From the NCBI GenBank assembly GCA_003216195.1, contig QCJF01000005.1, positions 53,298 to 117,297 of the forward strand: a stretch of DNA of 64,000 nt. Direction: 5' to 3'. Source of the stretch: Pelagibacteraceae bacterium AG-404-P08. Its GTDB lineage: Bacteria; Pseudomonadota; Alphaproteobacteria; HIMB59. The position numbers were made by a program, and so were the translations under genes. The notes beneath the pieces were generated by a model. It did no database searches. It had not been told where the DNA came from and saw only the letters and a list, made by a program, of their open reading frames with translations. Positions 54,831 to 63,649 of the stretch are shown in pieces (position 1 is the first letter of the stretch; each line of letters starts with the position of its first letter).

Positions 54831-55746
54831 TTTGTCTAATCAAAATAATAAAAGAATTCTCATTTTGGGCGCTTCAGGAAAAATTGGAAACACATTATAT
54901 CATTCAATAAAGAAACATTACTACACAGTAGGAACATATTTTAATAACCAAAGAAAAGAACTTATTAAATTTGATATAAATAAGAATTCACTTTTTAAAT
55001 TAATTAAAAAAAAATCTATTTCTCATGTTATTCTGTGTCAAGGTATTGTTAATTTTGACCAAATTTCTAAAGACCCTAAAAAAGCTGAAGATACAAATTT
55101 AAAATCTTTGATAAAGCAATTAAAAGAAATTAAAGATAATAATTCTATAAATGTAATTTTTTTTTCTTCAGAGTCAATTTTTGACGGTAATGTTGGAAAT
55201 TATACTGAAGAGTCTAGTCCAAATCCTATTTTTTCATATGGTAATCAAAAATTAGTTATAGAAAATTTCATAAAATCTAATTTTCAAAATCATCTAATTT
55301 TAAGATTATCAAAAGTATATGACTCAGAAATTAATGAACAAAAATCATTGATAGTTAATTGGTTTAATTTATTAAAAAATAGTCAAAAAGTAGAGGTCGC
55401 CATTGATAATTTCATTACACCAATTCATAAAAATGATTTGATGGAATTTATTACTAGATTAATAACTAAAGATGCACAAGGCACGTATAATATTAGTTCT
55501 GATGATAACATGAGTCGTAGTAACTTTTTCGAGATTTTTTATGAAAAATATTGTTTATACTTTAATACAAAATCATTAATTGAAAAAAAACAACTTAATA
55601 TTATCTCTAAGAAAAATGCTAATATTCCAAAAAAAACATCTCTTGATAATAGAAAAGTAAAACAATTTACAGGTCATACTCCCAAATCTTTTAGTCATTA
55701 TTGTGATATATTTTTTTCTAACTTAATTGCAAATGATAAAAAATAA
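54823..55746 (+). CDS. RmlD-like sugar nucleotide reductase
   Basis: ILGASGKIGNTLYHSIK, FFSSESIFDGNVGNYTEESSPNPIFSYGNQKLVIE. Confidence 0.8.
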   Translation: MNNLSNQNNKRILILGASGKIGNTLYHSIKKHYYTVGTYFNNQRKELIKFDINKNSLFKLIKKKSISHVILCQGIVNFDQISKDPKKAEDTNLKSLIKQLKEIKDNNSINVIFFSSESIFDGNVGNYTEESSPNPIFSYGNQKLVIENFIKSNFQNHLILRLSKVYDSEINEQKSLIVNWFNLLKNSQKVEVAIDNFITPIHKNDLMEFITRLITKDAQGTYNISSDDNMSRSNFFEIFYEKYCLYFNTKSLIEKKQLNIISKKNANIPKKTSLDNRKVKQFTGHTPKSFSHYCDIFFSNLIANDKK

Positions 55747-56911
55747 AAAACAAATTATTTTCAATAGAATGCCTTTGACAAATAATTTCAGAAATTCAAT
55801 TACTTCAAATAAAAGATATTTTAAACCTTCTATTGAAGTAGATGTTAATGATGGATACTTTTTTTTAACAAAAAATTGTTCATTTAAAAAACTCAAACCA
55901 AAATTTAATTGGCTTAAATGTTATGAACCTGAGTCACATTTAGATGATGTAGTAGATGATTTAATTAAAAATAAGATAATAAAAAAAAATCAAAAGTTAT
56001 GCTTTCTTACATTTAAAGATTACACCTTATCGAATAGGTTTAAAAAAAAAGGATTTAAAAAAATAAAGTTAATAGATCCTGTTATAGATTTAAGAATTAA
56101 AAATAAAAATTTTTTGACTGAAACTTTACAATATCATTTTCAAAAAGGTTACTTAAATAAAAAAAAACATATTAATAAATATAATTTCTTGTTTGCAAGA
56201 CATATATTTGAACATGTAAGTGATTTAAGTTTATTTTTTGAAAACGCAATGAATTTAATTGTCAGCAATGGTTTCCTTTATTTAGAGGTACCGGATAGTA
56301 CCAGGGCAATAAAAACTGGAGACTCAACTTTATATTGGGAGGAGCATAATTTTTATTTCACATATAAATCGTTTAAAAGAGTTTTAAAAAGACAAGGTTA
56401 CAATATTGTTTTTTATAAAAAATATAAAGACTCACTAGAGAATTGTATAGTAGCAGTAATACAAAAAAAAACTCAAAAATATTCCATTAAACGATTGAAA
56501 GCTGATCATCATCTTTTAAATGATTACTATAAAAATCTTATGCAAAATATAAAAAATACCAAATTAATATTCAATTTTTATAAAGATAAATATCCAATTA
56601 TTTTCTATGGAGCATCTCATTTAACTTTTACATTTATAGAGCTCATGGGAATTAGTAACTATGTTCAATTTATTATTGATGATGATAAAAATAAAAATAA
56701 ACTTTTTTCACCTGTGGGAAATTTAAAAATTTTTTCATTAGATCAAACGACACTTAAAGAAAAAAATTTATTTTTTTTAGGCCTTAATCCAAATCACCAT
56801 CCCAAAGTTATATTAAAATTAAAATCAAATTATCCAAAATCAATCTTCTTTTCTATATTCCCTAAAACAAGAAATTATTATTTAAATAGCACTCTAAAAA
56901 ATGAAAAATAA
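55727..56911 (+). CDS. SAM methyltransferase, C-methyltransferase-like without N-terminal zinc motif
   Basis: ARHIFEHVSDLSLFFENAMNLIVSNGFLYLEVPDS; C-terminal IFYGASHLTFTFIELMGI. Confidence 0.75.
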   Translation: MQMIKNKKQIIFNRMPLTNNFRNSITSNKRYFKPSIEVDVNDGYFFLTKNCSFKKLKPKFNWLKCYEPESHLDDVVDDLIKNKIIKKNQKLCFLTFKDYTLSNRFKKKGFKKIKLIDPVIDLRIKNKNFLTETLQYHFQKGYLNKKKHINKYNFLFARHIFEHVSDLSLFFENAMNLIVSNGFLYLEVPDSTRAIKTGDSTLYWEEHNFYFTYKSFKRVLKRQGYNIVFYKKYKDSLENCIVAVIQKKTQKYSIKRLKADHHLLNDYYKNLMQNIKNTKLIFNFYKDKYPIIFYGASHLTFTFIELMGISNYVQFIIDDDKNKNKLFSPVGNLKIFSLDQTTLKEKNLFFLGLNPNHHPKVILKLKSNYPKSIFFSIFPKTRNYYLNSTLKNEK

Positions 56912-57404
56912 AATAGTTGAAACTTTAAGCAATTCGAAAGTAAAAGCATTGACTAAGAAGAAAATTTTAAATTTAAAAAGTTCTGCAAAAAAAAATGCCT
57001 CAAATAAATATAGAGTTTGTGCTCATCAGCCTAGAGATAAAATTCATGAGATGTTTATATTTCATGAAAAAGATTATTTCGTTAAACCCCATAAACATAT
57101 AAATAAAACTGAGTCTTTATTTATATTAAAAGGTTCTATTGACTATATAATTTTTGATAAATTAGGAACTATTGTTAATTTATATAAATTGAACGACAGA
57201 GATCATAAAAAGTTTTTATTCATCAGAGTTAGCCCAGGTACTTATCATTCAATTATTATAAAAAGCAAATATGCAATTTTTTATGAAGTTACCTCTGGTC
57301 CTTTTTATAAAAGAGATACTATATTTGCCAATTGGTATGATACTAAATTACAAAATGAATACTATTTAGAATTAAAGAATCAGGTTAAAAAATTTAATAA
57401 ATGA
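56901..57404 (+). CDS. WbuC-family cupin fold protein
   Basis: NKYRVCAHQPRDKIHEMFIFHEKDYFVKPHKHINKTESLFILKGSIDYIIFD. Confidence 0.8.
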   Translation: MKNKIVETLSNSKVKALTKKKILNLKSSAKKNASNKYRVCAHQPRDKIHEMFIFHEKDYFVKPHKHINKTESLFILKGSIDYIIFDKLGTIVNLYKLNDRDHKKFLFIRVSPGTYHSIIIKSKYAIFYEVTSGPFYKRDTIFANWYDTKLQNEYYLELKNQVKKFNK

Positions 57405-58099
57405 AAAAATATTGTTTAATAGTTGGCGAGAGCTCACAAATTTCACAATTCCTCATACCAAAATTGACACAAAAAGAGTATTCAATAATTACTACATATA
57501 ATAAGAAAAAAAATAAATTATTAAAAAATAACTCTATTTATTTAAATTTAGAGAACACTAAACGTTATAAATTTTTTATTAATAAAATAAAAAAATTAAA
57601 AATTAAATTTGATCTCATTTTATTTGTTGCTGCTATTACCCCATCACTGGATAGAAATAAAAATAGTTTTTTAAGCAATTTGAATTTTGAAGATTTTAAA
57701 AGGTATTTGAAGGTAAATTGTTACAGCTATATTTCAATTACCGAACAATTAATAAAAGAAAAAATTTTAAACAATGAATGCAAGGTATTCTTTTTCTCTA
57801 CTAAGGCCTCAAGTATTGAAAATAGAGGTAAAATTGATCATCATTTGCCCGGTGGAGATATATTATATAGAATTTCTAAAGCTGCTTTGAATTGCGCTGT
57901 TAAAAATATTGCCTTTGATTTGTCTTCTTATAAGTATAGTTTTATAGCTTATCACCCAGGATATTATAATAGTAAAATTGAGAATTTTGATAAAAATATG
58001 ATAAGAATTTCTGATCAGTTTATTAAAATAATTAGCTCTAAAAAAAAGTATTTATCTGGCTCTTTTATTGACAATGATGGAAAGTCTATTAAATGGTAA
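57401..58099 (+). CDS. SDR family oxidoreductase
   Basis: CLIVGESSQISQFLIPKL, FFSTKASSIENRG, YRISKAALNCAVKNIAFDL. Confidence 0.75.
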   Translation: MKKYCLIVGESSQISQFLIPKLTQKEYSIITTYNKKKNKLLKNNSIYLNLENTKRYKFFINKIKKLKIKFDLILFVAAITPSLDRNKNSFLSNLNFEDFKRYLKVNCYSYISITEQLIKEKILNNECKVFFFSTKASSIENRGKIDHHLPGGDILYRISKAALNCAVKNIAFDLSSYKYSFIAYHPGYYNSKIENFDKNMIRISDQFIKIISSKKKYLSGSFIDNDGKSIKW

Positions 58100-58734
58100 A
58101 TTACCTTTTAGCTCTAACTGAATTAGTCTCTACAATAGTAATTCTTTTGATATCATCTTATTTGATAAGATTTTCTTTTATTTTAAATAAGCAATATTGG
58201 ATAAAAACTAAAACACTACTTCTATCTTCTTTGTTACTCCCAATAATTACCTTTGTTATTACAAAGGTTATATCAGGTAACCTAGCATTATCTTTAGGCA
58301 TGGTAGGCGCATTATCTATTGTCAGATTTAGAAATCCAGTAAAGTCACCTTTAGAATTAGTTCTTTATTTTACACTTATTACCCTTGGTATATCTGCTTC
58401 AGTAAATATTCAATGGACTATCATTTTAAGTTTTGTGGTTATTTTCATAAATGCAATGGCTTTTATTTATGAAAATTTCCTAGTTCAAAAATTTGGTATG
58501 CCAAAATTTTTAACAAGCTTTTCAGAGGGGAATCCTTTATCCACATTGGAAATTTCTATAGATCAAGAAATTGATTTTTTGAATAATAATAACTCATTTA
58601 GCTCGCTTACCCATCATGATAGTACTTATGTTTATAGATTTGCATCGCCTAATATTTCTGATCTAAATGATATTCTTTATGAGTTAAAATCTAAAAAAGT
58701 AGAACTTATTAGCTTCAATATTCAGAAATTTTAA
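58093..58734 (+). CDS. DUF4956 membrane protein
   Basis: SGNLALSLGMVGALSIVRFRNPVKSPLELVLYFTLITLGISAS motif. Confidence 0.85.
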   Translation: MVNYLLALTELVSTIVILLISSYLIRFSFILNKQYWIKTKTLLLSSLLLPIITFVITKVISGNLALSLGMVGALSIVRFRNPVKSPLELVLYFTLITLGISASVNIQWTIILSFVVIFINAMAFIYENFLVQKFGMPKFLTSFSEGNPLSTLEISIDQEIDFLNNNNSFSSLTHHDSTYVYRFASPNISDLNDILYELKSKKVELISFNIQKF

Positions 58735-58735
58735 A

Positions 58736-61534
58736 ATGCTTTTGAAGTTTTATTTCTTCATCTCATTACTTTTTTTTTATTCTTTAAACATAAAAGCAGA
58801 CGATTATTGTAATTTTTTATCTTCAGATTATGTAGATGAAATGATGGATTACACTGAAATAGAGTCCATAGAGGTCAACGCTAACAATCAAAAAGTATGG
58901 GTCATGAATGCAATAAGGGCATTATATGAACAAAATAATATTCAAAATGAACGTAAGAGAAAATTTAAAAGTAAAATTATTGTTAATTACCCTTTTGGTC
59001 ATTGTAATTTAGATGCTGAGATAAGACTTCATGGTGATTGGGTAGATACTCATATTTCATGGGATAATCAAAAATTGAGAACTAGTCTCGATATTGAAAT
59101 CTTGAATTCAAATATAACTGGAATTACACAATTCAAATTATTTTTGCCAGAGGCAAGGAATTCTTATAATGAAGTTATCTCTTCAGAAATATTAAGAAAA
59201 TTAGGTTTTCTGAGCCCAAGAACTAAAATAATAGACTCTAAAATAAATGGTTTTAGTTATGAGGTAATTTTTCAAGAAAAAATTGTAAAAGAGTTTTTAG
59301 AAAATAATGACTTAAGGGAAGGGTCAATTCTTGAGGGTGATGAGTCGCTTATGTTTCTTGGATCAAACGCTGAAAATAATTTAAATCAAATATCATTATC
59401 TAGAATTATTAATTCAAATTGGGCAAAAAAAAATGAAACTAATTTGATATCATCAATAAAAGCTCTTGAGGCTCTACAAGAAGCTTATATTTCTAAATCA
59501 AGAGCAGACTTAAACGTTTATATTGATTGGAAAAAAATTTTTGAAAACTTACCAATAAGTGAAGATTATGAAAAATATATAAAAAAAAATGAAATTCTCG
59601 TAATGGCCCTTGGGGGCACACATTCAATGTATGCGAGTAATAGAAAATTTTATTACGATCAATTAAATGAAACACTACACCCAATATATTATGACTCTGG
59701 ACCTGACTTAAATGATACTTGTTTATTTTTAAATTGTAGCGGTGTTGCTGAAAATTTTTATAGAGATATTTTAGATAATTCTTCAGTTAGTGAAATAAAA
59801 AACGATTTTTTCCGTCTATTAGATAGTGATGACTTTAATATAAATATTTTAGAGGATCATAAAGTCCCTAAAAATATTTATTATGAGTATATAGAATATG
59901 TGAAAGAAAGATTTAAAAGATTTGAAAAAATTGATTTTGATATTGAACCACAAGAAAAAATAAATTTTAGTATAAAAGATTATCAGTCTAAAGCATTTAA
60001 TTTAAAAAAAGATTTAAGTCTTCTTTACTTAAATGATATTGACTGGATCAATAAAATTGTATCATTTGATTTATGTGATTTAAATAATTGTAAATATAAT
60101 CAATTGAAAAGTATTGATTTTTTTTATGATATTTTAAAAAGAGATATTTTATTAGAAAAAGATATCTTTTTTGTAAAATCTAATATTAATGGTTTATTTG
60201 AATTTAAAAAAATTAACTTTGATGATGATAAAATTAAAGTTTTATATAATGTAGAATCAACTGCACCATATTTTGATGAGGAAAAAAAAGAACTTATCTT
60301 TAAACAAAAAGATGGTAAAGAACAGTTTATTATTATCAATTCAAATTTGGAAAATATAGATATTCATTTTCATGGTAGTAGTAATTTATCTAATAAGAAG
60401 AGTCTCAATAAATTTAATCAAACTGGTTGTTTAAATATAATTGATACTAAAGTTGAAAACATCAATATATTTTCCACTAAAGGAATTTGTGAAGACTCAG
60501 TTAATTTTATAAGATCAAACGGATATATTAATAAAATTTATATAAAAGAAGCTTATTCAGATGCTATTGATTTTGATTTTTCAGAAATTAAGCTTGATCA
60601 ACTGATCATCGATAGAGCTAATAATGACTGTAGTGATTTTTCAGGTGGGGAATATAAAATAAGTTTATTAAATCTATCTTATTGTGGTGATAAAGCATTA
60701 TCTATAGGAGAGTTTTCAAAAGTAAAAATAGACAAATTTATTGCTAGTAGTTCTAATATCGGTATTGCTGTAAAAGATAGTTCTATTTTAGATGCTAATA
60801 ATGTTGAAATAAAAACTGTTAAATATTGTTTATCAGCCTATAACAAAAAGAATGAATTTAACGGTGGTTTGATTAATATTGGATCAGTCAATTGTAAGGA
60901 TTTTTATAAATTCAAGGATATTGATCAATTTTCTAAGATTATTATCACAAATAATAATAAAAATATCGATTTTGGCATTACTGAAAAAATTAATAACAAA
61001 AATTTAATTGAAGATACTAAAAGTTTTGCCTCAAAAAATTATATAAATGTAATTGTTGAAATACCTAAAGGAACTAATGAGAAGTGGGAGGTTGATAAAA
61101 TTACAGGATCTTTAATGCAAGATTATGAAATGGGAGAACCTAGATATACATCTCTAAATTATCCTTTTAACTATGGCATTATCCCTAGAACTTCTTTGCC
61201 AATAAAACTTGGTGGAGATGGCGATCCATTAGATGTCATAATTATTGGAGAAAATTTACAAAGAGGTCAAATTTTGGAAGCTAAAGTTTTAGGTGCAATA
61301 AAAATGACTGATACTGGAGAAAATGATGACAAAATTGTGGCTGTAACTAAAAATTATAAAGATTTAACAAAAAAAGATATTGATAATATTTTCAATGAGT
61401 CAAAAACTTTCTTCGAAAATTATAAAGGTAATTATAGAGTAGAATTCTTAAAATTTTTATCAAGAGATGAAGCATTAAACATTATTTCTACTTCAAATAA
61501 GCAATATAATAAGTTTGGTATCAGAAAAAGATAA
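58736..61534 (+). CDS. Secreted CotH kinase-like + beta-helix + C-terminal family I inorganic pyrophosphatase fusion
   Basis: Signal peptide MLLKFYFFISLLFFYSLNIKA; CotH-like LHGDW...FLPEARNSYNEVISSEILRKLGFLSPRT; PPase motifs VEIPKGTNEKWEVDK, NYPFNYGII, GDGDPLDVIIIGE, KMTDTGENDDKIVAV. Confidence 0.85.
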   Translation: MLLKFYFFISLLFFYSLNIKADDYCNFLSSDYVDEMMDYTEIESIEVNANNQKVWVMNAIRALYEQNNIQNERKRKFKSKIIVNYPFGHCNLDAEIRLHGDWVDTHISWDNQKLRTSLDIEILNSNITGITQFKLFLPEARNSYNEVISSEILRKLGFLSPRTKIIDSKINGFSYEVIFQEKIVKEFLENNDLREGSILEGDESLMFLGSNAENNLNQISLSRIINSNWAKKNETNLISSIKALEALQEAYISKSRADLNVYIDWKKIFENLPISEDYEKYIKKNEILVMALGGTHSMYASNRKFYYDQLNETLHPIYYDSGPDLNDTCLFLNCSGVAENFYRDILDNSSVSEIKNDFFRLLDSDDFNINILEDHKVPKNIYYEYIEYVKERFKRFEKIDFDIEPQEKINFSIKDYQSKAFNLKKDLSLLYLNDIDWINKIVSFDLCDLNNCKYNQLKSIDFFYDILKRDILLEKDIFFVKSNINGLFEFKKINFDDDKIKVLYNVESTAPYFDEEKKELIFKQKDGKEQFIIINSNLENIDIHFHGSSNLSNKKSLNKFNQTGCLNIIDTKVENINIFSTKGICEDSVNFIRSNGYINKIYIKEAYSDAIDFDFSEIKLDQLIIDRANNDCSDFSGGEYKISLLNLSYCGDKALSIGEFSKVKIDKFIASSSNIGIAVKDSSILDANNVEIKTVKYCLSAYNKKNEFNGGLINIGSVNCKDFYKFKDIDQFSKIIITNNNKNIDFGITEKINNKNLIEDTKSFASKNYINVIVEIPKGTNEKWEVDKITGSLMQDYEMGEPRYTSLNYPFNYGIIPRTSLPIKLGGDGDPLDVIIIGENLQRGQILEAKVLGAIKMTDTGENDDKIVAVTKNYKDLTKKDIDNIFNESKTFFENYKGNYRVEFLKFLSRDEALNIISTSNKQYNKFGIRKR

Positions 61535-62133
61535 TGTCTTACAGGGTTGAGGATAAAATTCCTATTACTAAATACGATAGATTTATACTGCATAAAGAAC
61601 TAAAAAACAAAGGAATGAAAAAATTATTCCCCGATAGACATATAAGTTCAGTTTACTTTGATAATATGGAGTTAAAAATATATCAAGACTCAATAGAGGG
61701 ACTTCTTCCAAGGAAAAAGTTAAGAATAAGAAATTATAATAAAATAAATAAATATAGTTTTGAAAAAAAGATTTCCTCAGTAGAGGGTAGGTTTAAGACA
61801 TCTCAACAAATTAATATAGAAGAATATGATAGAAAAATTAAGAATGGTTATTTAGACAGCCAGTATGGTTTAGTTAAACCATTAATTACTATTTCTTACA
61901 CAAGAATGTATTTTCAATATAATAAATTTAGGATTACAATTGATAGTGATATTGAATGTTATCAATTTGTAAATTCAAAAAAATATTTTAAATCTGATAA
62001 AAATGTTCTTGAAATAAAATCACCAAATTTAAATGATAGAGATTTGATTAATCGTCTAATTCCATTTGAAAAAAAAAGATTCTCTAAATATACTGAAGGC
62101 ATAGAGAATTTAAATTTATTGAATTTTGTCTAA
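61534..62133 (+). CDS. VTC-domain (polyphosphate polymerase-like, CYTH/TTM superfamily) protein
   Basis: YRVEDKIPI, SVYFDNMELKIYQDSIEGLLPRKKLRIRNYN, YSFEKK, RITIDSDIE, VLEIKSPN. Confidence 0.85.
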   Translation: MSYRVEDKIPITKYDRFILHKELKNKGMKKLFPDRHISSVYFDNMELKIYQDSIEGLLPRKKLRIRNYNKINKYSFEKKISSVEGRFKTSQQINIEEYDRKIKNGYLDSQYGLVKPLITISYTRMYFQYNKFRITIDSDIECYQFVNSKKYFKSDKNVLEIKSPNLNDRDLINRLIPFEKKRFSKYTEGIENLNLLNFV

Positions 62134-62164: not shown

Positions 62165-62911
62165 ATGCAAAACAGAAAAGGTATTGATATTTTTGAACAC
62201 AGTAGTAATAAAAATTTTGAACAAATTAACACTATAATTGGGCATTTTTTTAATCTCAAAGAGTCTGTATATTTTAAAATGAATTCAGATGACTACAGAG
62301 ATATTGTTGTATCTGCCCAAAAAAAACTAAATTCGATTAATATAATTAAAAAAACTATAAAAAATATATCTGAAGAGCTTTTTTATGCTCTTGATACAGA
62401 TAAAATTTTAGTTCAATCTTTGGCTTACCTAAGAGCTACTCGACCTAGCAATGTAAAATCAGGAGAATTTATACAATTTCATAGAGAGTCATTTTTTGGA
62501 AAAGGTATGGAAAAATGCTTTAATGTTTGGACGCCTATTAAAGGTGTTAGTGAAAAAAATAGTTTAAATATTATCCCAATGAGTCATAGGATACCTCTTT
62601 CAAAAATTAAACTTAAAAGAAAAGACAGTAAATTCACAAAAAGATACTCAGCTGGCCATAAGATTGGTCTACTATATAAAGATATGATCATTACTTCAGG
62701 CGTAGATTTGAAGAAAAAAACACCACTTGTTGTTAAAAAAAATCACTCAGCTGTTTTTGAATGTAATTTGATACATGGAAGCGCTGAAAACAAAACTAAT
62801 AAGATTAGATTTTCATACGATTTTAGAATTATTCGAAAAAAGGATTATAATAAAAATATGTTTAAGAAGCAGAATTTTGCCTCAGGCAAAGACTATTTTA
62901 TAGAATTATAA
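62165..62911 (+). CDS. Phytanoyl-CoA dioxygenase-like 2OG-Fe(II) oxygenase
   Basis: FIQFHRESFF (HxE), NVWTPIKGVSEKNSLNIIPMSH, NLIHGSAENKTNKIRFSYDFRI. Confidence 0.65.
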   Translation: MQNRKGIDIFEHSSNKNFEQINTIIGHFFNLKESVYFKMNSDDYRDIVVSAQKKLNSINIIKKTIKNISEELFYALDTDKILVQSLAYLRATRPSNVKSGEFIQFHRESFFGKGMEKCFNVWTPIKGVSEKNSLNIIPMSHRIPLSKIKLKRKDSKFTKRYSAGHKIGLLYKDMIITSGVDLKKKTPLVVKKNHSAVFECNLIHGSAENKTNKIRFSYDFRIIRKKDYNKNMFKKQNFASGKDYFIEL

Positions 62912-62917
62912 ATTTAT

Positions 62918-63649
62918 ATGTACACTTTGGAAAGTCATGGATTTCAAAAATTCAAAGTTCCAAAAAAAAATTTTAACTACCTTATAGAATTTAAAAATCT
63001 AGTTGAAAATACATCTAATTCAATAATAAATAAAAAGCAAAAACTTAATAATATTCATAAACATAATTTTGATAAAGAAGATTTTAATAGTTTTAGATTA
63101 AAAATCTTTAATCAAATAAATAATAAAAAAAATATACATGAAATAATCTTTAGAATTTACGACGATCTTATTGTGAGTTTAATTGGAAAAGATATTTGTG
63201 TACAAAAAAATATTAACTTTAGTATTCAAAGACCTTTTGATCAACAAAGGGCTCCTTTTCATAAAGATTCTCCTCCTAATTCTCCTTACGAGATAGTTGT
63301 ATGGCTGCCTTTAGTTAATTGTTTTAAAGATATGTCAATGTATTTATTTGATATCAAAAAAAGTAAAAAGATTGATTACTTTTTATCAAAGTCTAATGGT
63401 ATATCACATGATACTTACGCAAAAAAAAATGGAGTTTGTTGTGAATGTAAGTTTGGAGAATTATTGATTTTTTCAGCTCCAACTTATCATTATATACCAG
63501 TAAATAGTCAAAAAGACTCAAGGTGGTCAATTAATTGCCGATATAAAAATACTTTTTCACCAAATGGTATGAAAGGCTACTTGGATTTTTTTGAGCCTTT
63601 ACGGTACTCTGAGATAACAAAGTTAGCAATAAAATATGAAGAAAAATAA
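62918..63649 (+). CDS. Sporadic carbohydrate cluster 2OG-Fe(II) oxygenase (second copy)
   Basis: FSIQRPFDQQRAPFHKDSPPNSPYEIVVWLPLVNC, PTYHYIPVNSQKDSRWSINCRYKNTFSPNG; parallels the 39407 ORF. Confidence 0.8.
   Translation: MYTLESHGFQKFKVPKKNFNYLIEFKNLVENTSNSIINKKQKLNNIHKHNFDKEDFNSFRLKIFNQINNKKNIHEIIFRIYDDLIVSLIGKDICVQKNINFSIQRPFDQQRAPFHKDSPPNSPYEIVVWLPLVNCFKDMSMYLFDIKKSKKIDYFLSKSNGISHDTYAKKNGVCCECKFGELLIFSAPTYHYIPVNSQKDSRWSINCRYKNTFSPNGMKGYLDFFEPLRYSEITKLAIKYEEK

Follow-up and report, generated by a model that had tools for sequence, protein, structure and literature searches.

A family I pyrophosphatase domain fused to a putatively exported CotH-like/beta-helix protein in a DUF4956/VTC cassette of marine alphaproteobacteria

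Introduction

Inorganic pyrophosphatases (PPases) are textbook cytosolic enzymes. One of the closest described cases of a family I PPase at another site is the acidocalcisomal enzyme of trypanosomes, TbVSP1, which is found on the lumenal side of the membrane in organisms that make polyphosphate (polyP) by VTC, and whose substrates are PPi and, to a lesser extent, longer polyP (PMC3022644). In yeast, synthesis by the VTC complex (Vtc4) in the cytosol is coupled to translocation across the membrane, and PPi is usable as a primer (PMC9911596). A further related protein is the Bacillus spore-coat kinase CotH (5jd9/5jda), which is inactivated by changes at Asp228 or Asp251 (PMC7821199). CotH, a polyphosphate polymerase, and DUF4956 form a known accessory group of Gram-positive Pel clusters, located beside the pel genes in streptococci, clostridia, and bifidobacteria, and the excerpt of the source considered here makes no mention of a PPase (PMC7112168).

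A locus with the same three kinds of proteins as the Pel accessory group is described here, and the cassette type is therefore already known. The locus lies in the window, that is, the whole 64,000-nucleotide stretch of DNA that was analysed; the source genome is a 1.24-Mb MAG in 27 contigs and is 82% complete. Unlike the published group, the cassette of the window is marine alphaproteobacterial and carries a beta-helix and a PPase tail. It also differs from the other known systems. The yeast VTC relative is encoded here as a separate 199-aa protein without TM parts, and DUF4956 may replace the VTC membrane domain. VSP1 is a eukaryotic organelle enzyme whose N-terminal extension is unrelated. 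Bacillus CotH has the fold of the N-terminal domain of the fusion protein, whereas the latter is probably exported and is joined to a beta-helix and a PPase. In the literature searched, no description was found of the addition of a PPase to the CotH-DUF4956-polyP-polymerase grouping, nor any biochemistry of a cassette member. Nothing relevant on exported or periplasmic bacterial PPases was found there either, which is weak evidence as subscription papers and preprints lie outside its coverage.

The locus and the fusion protein

Three genes for a DUF4956 protein, the fusion protein, and a VTC-type protein are adjacent on one strand at 58093-62133. Their features are as follows.

58093-58734, + strand: DUF4956 membrane protein, 213 aa, about 4-5 TM-like windows (PF16316, E 5.7e-9)
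58736-61534, + strand: CotH-like/beta-helix/PPase fusion protein, 932 aa, a single unbroken ATG..TAA frame
58736-58801, + strand: putative signal peptide, residues 1-22 (hydrophobic residues 1-19)
58811-59935, + strand: CotH-like (kinase-fold) domain, about residues 26-400 (structure match to 5jda, hhalign, residue counts)
60422-60973, + strand: parallel beta-helix, about residues 563-746, with conserved Cys (AF2 model, Cys alignment)
61025-61516, + strand: family I inorganic pyrophosphatase domain, residues 764-927, no Cys (PF00719, fold match, residue list)
61534-62133, + strand: VTC/CYTH-type polyphosphate-polymerase-like protein, 199 aa, no TM window (PF09359, E 6.8e-24)

A TM-like window is a 19-aa window with KD>1.6. 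The DUF4956 protein has five of them, and the fusion protein contains a single one, the hydrophobic stretch of 19 aa at its N-terminus (residues 1-19). Eight Cys are invariant across all nine rows of the family alignment, six of them within the beta-helix region. The hydrophobic start and these family-conserved Cys suggest that the protein is exported. The AlphaFold model, built with 46 aligned rows, has a pLDDT of 87.8 and a pTM of 0.86. Beta-helix strands follow one another over a long stretch, from about 563 to 746, with pLDDT mostly >95; residues 748-757 form a poorly modelled linker, after which a PPase fold extends from about 764 to about 927. The original prediction of a multidomain protein in which a repetitive segment resembles a parallel beta-helix thus agrees with the model, and its proposal of export fits the N-terminal stretch that precedes the CotH fold, the beta-helix, and the PPase.

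That two genes were fused by an assembly error is conceivable for a MAG in 27 contigs, and it was rejected as extremely improbable. Six further SAR11 proteins with the fused architecture were found, with an equivalent junction, and five of them come from separately named assemblies; this recurrence rules out an assembly join. Moreover, the GC content is similar on either side of the join (0.243 vs 0.268), and the locus is continuous, with a downstream VTC gene that overlaps the end of the fusion ORF by TAATG.

The pyrophosphatase domain

PF00719 is the sole Pfam domain found in the fusion protein. The match spans residues 772-924 and positions 1-152 of the 153 in the profile, with E 3.1e-33 and 115 bits against a cut-off of 23.5. 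When the domain is placed against the sequence of E. coli PPase, all 14 expected catalytic or metal-binding residues are present (E775, K783, E785, R803, Y809, Y813, D828, D830, D833, D859, D864, K866, Y896, and K897); the R43 position adjoins a small insertion. An alignment of 12 cassette PPases has 22 invariant columns, to which 13 of the 14 catalytic positions belong; the remaining one, E31, is Gln in one row. Structure prediction might have rejected the PPase fold; instead, the Foldseek search gave plant and Legionella family I PPases as its best PDB matches (E 4e-12, TM normalised by target 0.77). Sequence matches to trypanosome VSP1 (5c5v/5cuy) are at about 1e-10. A complete family I domain with intact catalytic residues, as originally proposed, is hence what profile, fold, and residue positions indicate. 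The absence of a Met near its start was also correctly noted: the first Met inside the domain is codon 794, behind three of the 14 catalytic residues, so that no internal ATG yields a complete separate enzyme. A separate PPase gene from an internal start was rejected on this ground.

The domain could still be an inactive structural element or a decaying leftover, and the patchy distribution of the PPase among CotH lineages would fit such a fate. This is nevertheless very unlikely. The catalytic positions show little or no variation, although the whole domain is only 40-61% identical in pairs among the six full-length fused copies, that of the window included; the frames are intact, and one close pair of separate cassette PPases gives a dN/dS of 0.26. 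It is highly probable that the domain is an exported, active PPase belonging to the DUF4956/CotH/VTC cassette.

A housekeeping role was also considered and rejected. PF00719 occurs once in the 82%-complete assembly of the window genome, as the fused domain, and in none of the 51 other genomes of the genus. In the five SAR11 fusion genomes searched, the fused domain is likewise the sole match. For cytosolic PPi the window genome has the H+-PPase HppA, and the searches of the genus gave no other family I PPase; a role of the fused domain in handling cytosolic PPi is therefore unlikely. The PPK1 C-terminal domain was not found in the window genome. As the MAG is only 82% complete, absences from it are soft.

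The CotH-like domain

The Pfam CotH profile (PF08757) matches neither the fusion protein nor the nine members of its family alignment, and it passes the cut-off only in L005 and L141, two cassette relatives at a greater distance. The assignment is made through structure and a chain of profiles. The model of residues 26-480 has a pLDDT of 87.4, and its best PDB match by Foldseek is CotH 5jda (E 5.8e-10, TM 0.56 by target). By hhalign, the family of the fusion protein matches a second cassette CotH family with probability 100 and E 1.2e-52; this second family matches B. cereus CotH 5jd9 with E 2.3e-13, and some of its members score above the Pfam CotH cut-off. According to the predicted structure, the first domain has the CotH fold.

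Alignment to CotH, together with spacing, places the catalytic Asp251 at D320, which is Asp in 37/37 relatives; Glu181 and Gln180 are likewise invariant in all 37. The Asp228 position corresponds to H296, and 35 of the 37 relatives have His there, so kinase activity cannot be assumed. The first reading of this region as CotH-kinase-like is therefore supported for the fold and not for the kinase label.

The DUF4956/CotH/VTC cassette and its distribution

The protein encoded downstream of the fusion is, by sequence, a relative of the VTC polyphosphate polymerases with a putative role in polyP synthesis. Its family profile matches yeast Vtc4 (3g3q) with E 2.4e-11. The alignment of 29 rows has 19 invariant columns, mostly R/K/E/D/S/Y, among them charged residues of the tunnel type. 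By appearance, the genes at window positions 55727-58099 and 62165-63649 encode sugar/glycan modification proteins (methyltransferase, SDR) and PhyH-type/2OG-Fe(II) oxygenases.

A scan of 84,980 species genomes left 80 cassette loci, mostly in SAR11 and also in SAR86, roseobacters, Marinomonas, and marine Actinobacteria. Marinomonas sp. MED121 and Brevirhabdus pacifica are cultured bacteria with the unfused form. The three-gene order is common to most of these loci that have enough flank, and a DUF4956 neighbour is present in nearly all of them. The PPase is fused in five of the 80 (L048, L051, L101, L110, and L115), and L137 is a further, partial fused protein. In these six, the order is always DUF4956 - CotH::PPase - VTC where flanks are present. 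As most cassettes have no PPase, it is an accessory rather than a core step. The CotH-beta-helix relatives in 162 genomes of the order keep the cassette and end near residue 740-760, without a PPase. All carriers found of the fused form are marine bacteria with small genomes.

Paralogs of the CotH-like proteins also occur. A second, shorter one (538-560 aa) lies upstream of DUF4956 in two fusion cassettes (L051:1665-3344 and a 538-aa ORF in L101). One genome of the source's order (G160) has three CotH-beta-helix paralogs, two in full DUF4956/CotH/VTC cassettes (L017 and L020) and one (L006) with DUF4956 and no VTC match within its stretch.

When the 397 genomes of one SAR11 family (that of G546) were searched with the PPase domain, nine matches were obtained, all nine in the cassette. 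Four are fused, in open frames of 901-1020 aa, and five are separate proteins of 207-230 aa. All five separate PPases start with a hydrophobic, signal-peptide-like stretch, and they occupy three different cassette positions: before DUF4956 (L138 and L140), between CotH and VTC (L139), and after VTC (L141 and L142). This context of the fusion, namely, the DUF4956 and VTC neighbours, the separate and apparently exported PPases at the cassette locus of relatives, and the status of sole family I PPase found in the genome, was absent from the original prediction.

Class- and phylum-wide searches, with open frames of 569, 837, and 1887 aa left out, gave no further convincing fusion except a ParB-like::PPase; this was also the only fusion at E<=1e-36 in 321 sampled genomes of one class (that of G1168). 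No CotH-beta-helix relative was found in viral contigs.

A second class of phosphohydrolases recurs at these loci. Calcineurin-like phosphoesterases, mutually related and mostly with a hydrophobic N-terminus, are encoded beside eleven cassettes (L004, L012, L051, L054, L057, L071, L085, L102, L112, where the gene is split in two frames, L116, and L141), and PF00149 was confirmed in six of the eleven. Six with hydrophobic N-termini are at L004:2735-3850, L012:2125-3186, L054:6758-7594, L057:2432-3355, L116:887-1813, and L141:2896-3819. The L141 cassette carries both a PPase and a phosphoesterase. The recurrence of two unrelated phosphohydrolases beside one cassette suggests, through guilt by association, that the cassette has a phosphate-bearing product outside the membrane.

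Evolution of the fusion

In a 73-row PPase tree, with an outgroup of Alphaproteobacteria and viral contigs only, the seven fused and five separate cassette PPases form one clade with two ParB-like::PPase proteins (99/99), within which the seven fused domains group together (92/88). In an 89-row CotH-beta-helix tree, obtained by a quick search, the seven fused proteins are scattered and require seven changes, as expected by chance. Since the fused PPases cluster and their CotH parts scatter, the PPase tail has either moved among CotH lineages or been lost from them repeatedly. Many viral contigs (L150-L229) encode family I PPases, and those included in the tree form groups of their own outside the cassette clade.

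The ParB-like::PPase proteins are the nearest clade to the cassette PPases. They are encoded at L230:2966-4507, on the Vibrio pelagius plasmid NZ_CP090616, and at L144:1495-3036, in a related gammaproteobacterium, and are annotated only as ParB-like. As in the cassette fusion, a hydrophobic start is combined with a C-terminal family I PPase; the fusion partner is instead ParBc_2 (PF08857), and no CotH, DUF4956, or VTC is present in the stretches examined.

Proposed function and alternative explanations

In the proposed cassette, a VTC-type polymerase would work in the cytosol, the DUF4956 protein would lie in the membrane, and the CotH-like/beta-helix protein would be placed in the periplasm or at the surface. 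The VTC protein, together with DUF4956, would convert ATP to polyphosphate, or to another phosphoanhydride, and pass it across the inner membrane, where the CotH-like/beta-helix protein would receive or use it. In the source lineage and in scattered SAR11 relatives, a PPase is joined to the C-terminus of this apparently exported protein; thus tethered, it would turn PPi or short polyP ends into phosphate, which would draw the reaction onward while Pi is recovered. We infer the polyP product, the DUF4956 conduit, and the PPase activity alike. The PPase would most likely act on PPi or short polyP at the outer side of the DUF4956/VTC membrane module. For the explanation as a whole, with the fusion protein as the exported part of this module and a tethered PPase, the chances of being right or wrong seem evenly balanced to us, and slightly less than that is granted to its substrate being PPi or polyP from the VTC module. 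As VTC builds its polymer from ATP, ADP is released rather than PPi, and the source of PPi outside the membrane is consequently not obvious.

Another source of PPi would be the CotH-like domain itself, if it were a nucleotidyl transferase that transfers AMP, or passes through an AMP intermediate in a glutamylation-like reaction, and releases PPi, whose removal by the fused PPase would drive the reaction. The His in place of Asp228, when Asp320, Glu181, and Gln180 are all kept throughout, suggests an altered chemistry on the CotH fold, and a fusion in cis suits product removal. On the other hand, most relatives work without a PPase, the PPase of five genomes is encoded next to the CotH gene instead of within it, the presence of ATP beyond the membrane would need an explanation, and a release of PPi does not account for the recurrent metallophosphoesterases. 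Alternatively, the PPase might scavenge environmental PPi or polyP for phosphate, the CotH-like/beta-helix part being a mere surface anchor and the link to the cassette a hitch-hike. The marine, small-genome carriers of the fused form are consistent with such scavenging, as are the recurrent metallophosphoesterases nearby and the gammaproteobacterial ParB-like::PPase proteins, with their hydrophobic N-termini and no cassette in the stretches examined. Nevertheless, a free-standing scavenger would not need the cassette, and 9/9 SAR11-family PPases are found in it. Both the transferase and the scavenging explanations are considered unlikely, to a similar extent, and a PPase working on the product of the DUF4956/VTC module is preferred to either.

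Biological significance

In broader terms, the marine cassettes may constitute a transmembrane polyphosphate machine, with VTC inside, DUF4956 in the membrane, CotH-like/beta-helix proteins outside, and exported PPases or metallophosphoesterases as exchangeable processing modules. This extension is tentative and rather doubtful at present; if true, the machine would parallel, in bacteria, the VTC/acidocalcisome arrangement of eukaryotes.

SAR11 bacteria, which are among the most abundant of the ocean and mostly lack any family I PPase, include members whose family I PPases are apparently exported and tied to a VTC-type cassette. The recurrence of the fusion is a hint that polyphosphate chemistry may take place beyond the cell membrane. 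Should the polyP reading be true, the widespread CotH-DUF4956-VTC cassette would gain a testable function and a link to marine phosphorus use.
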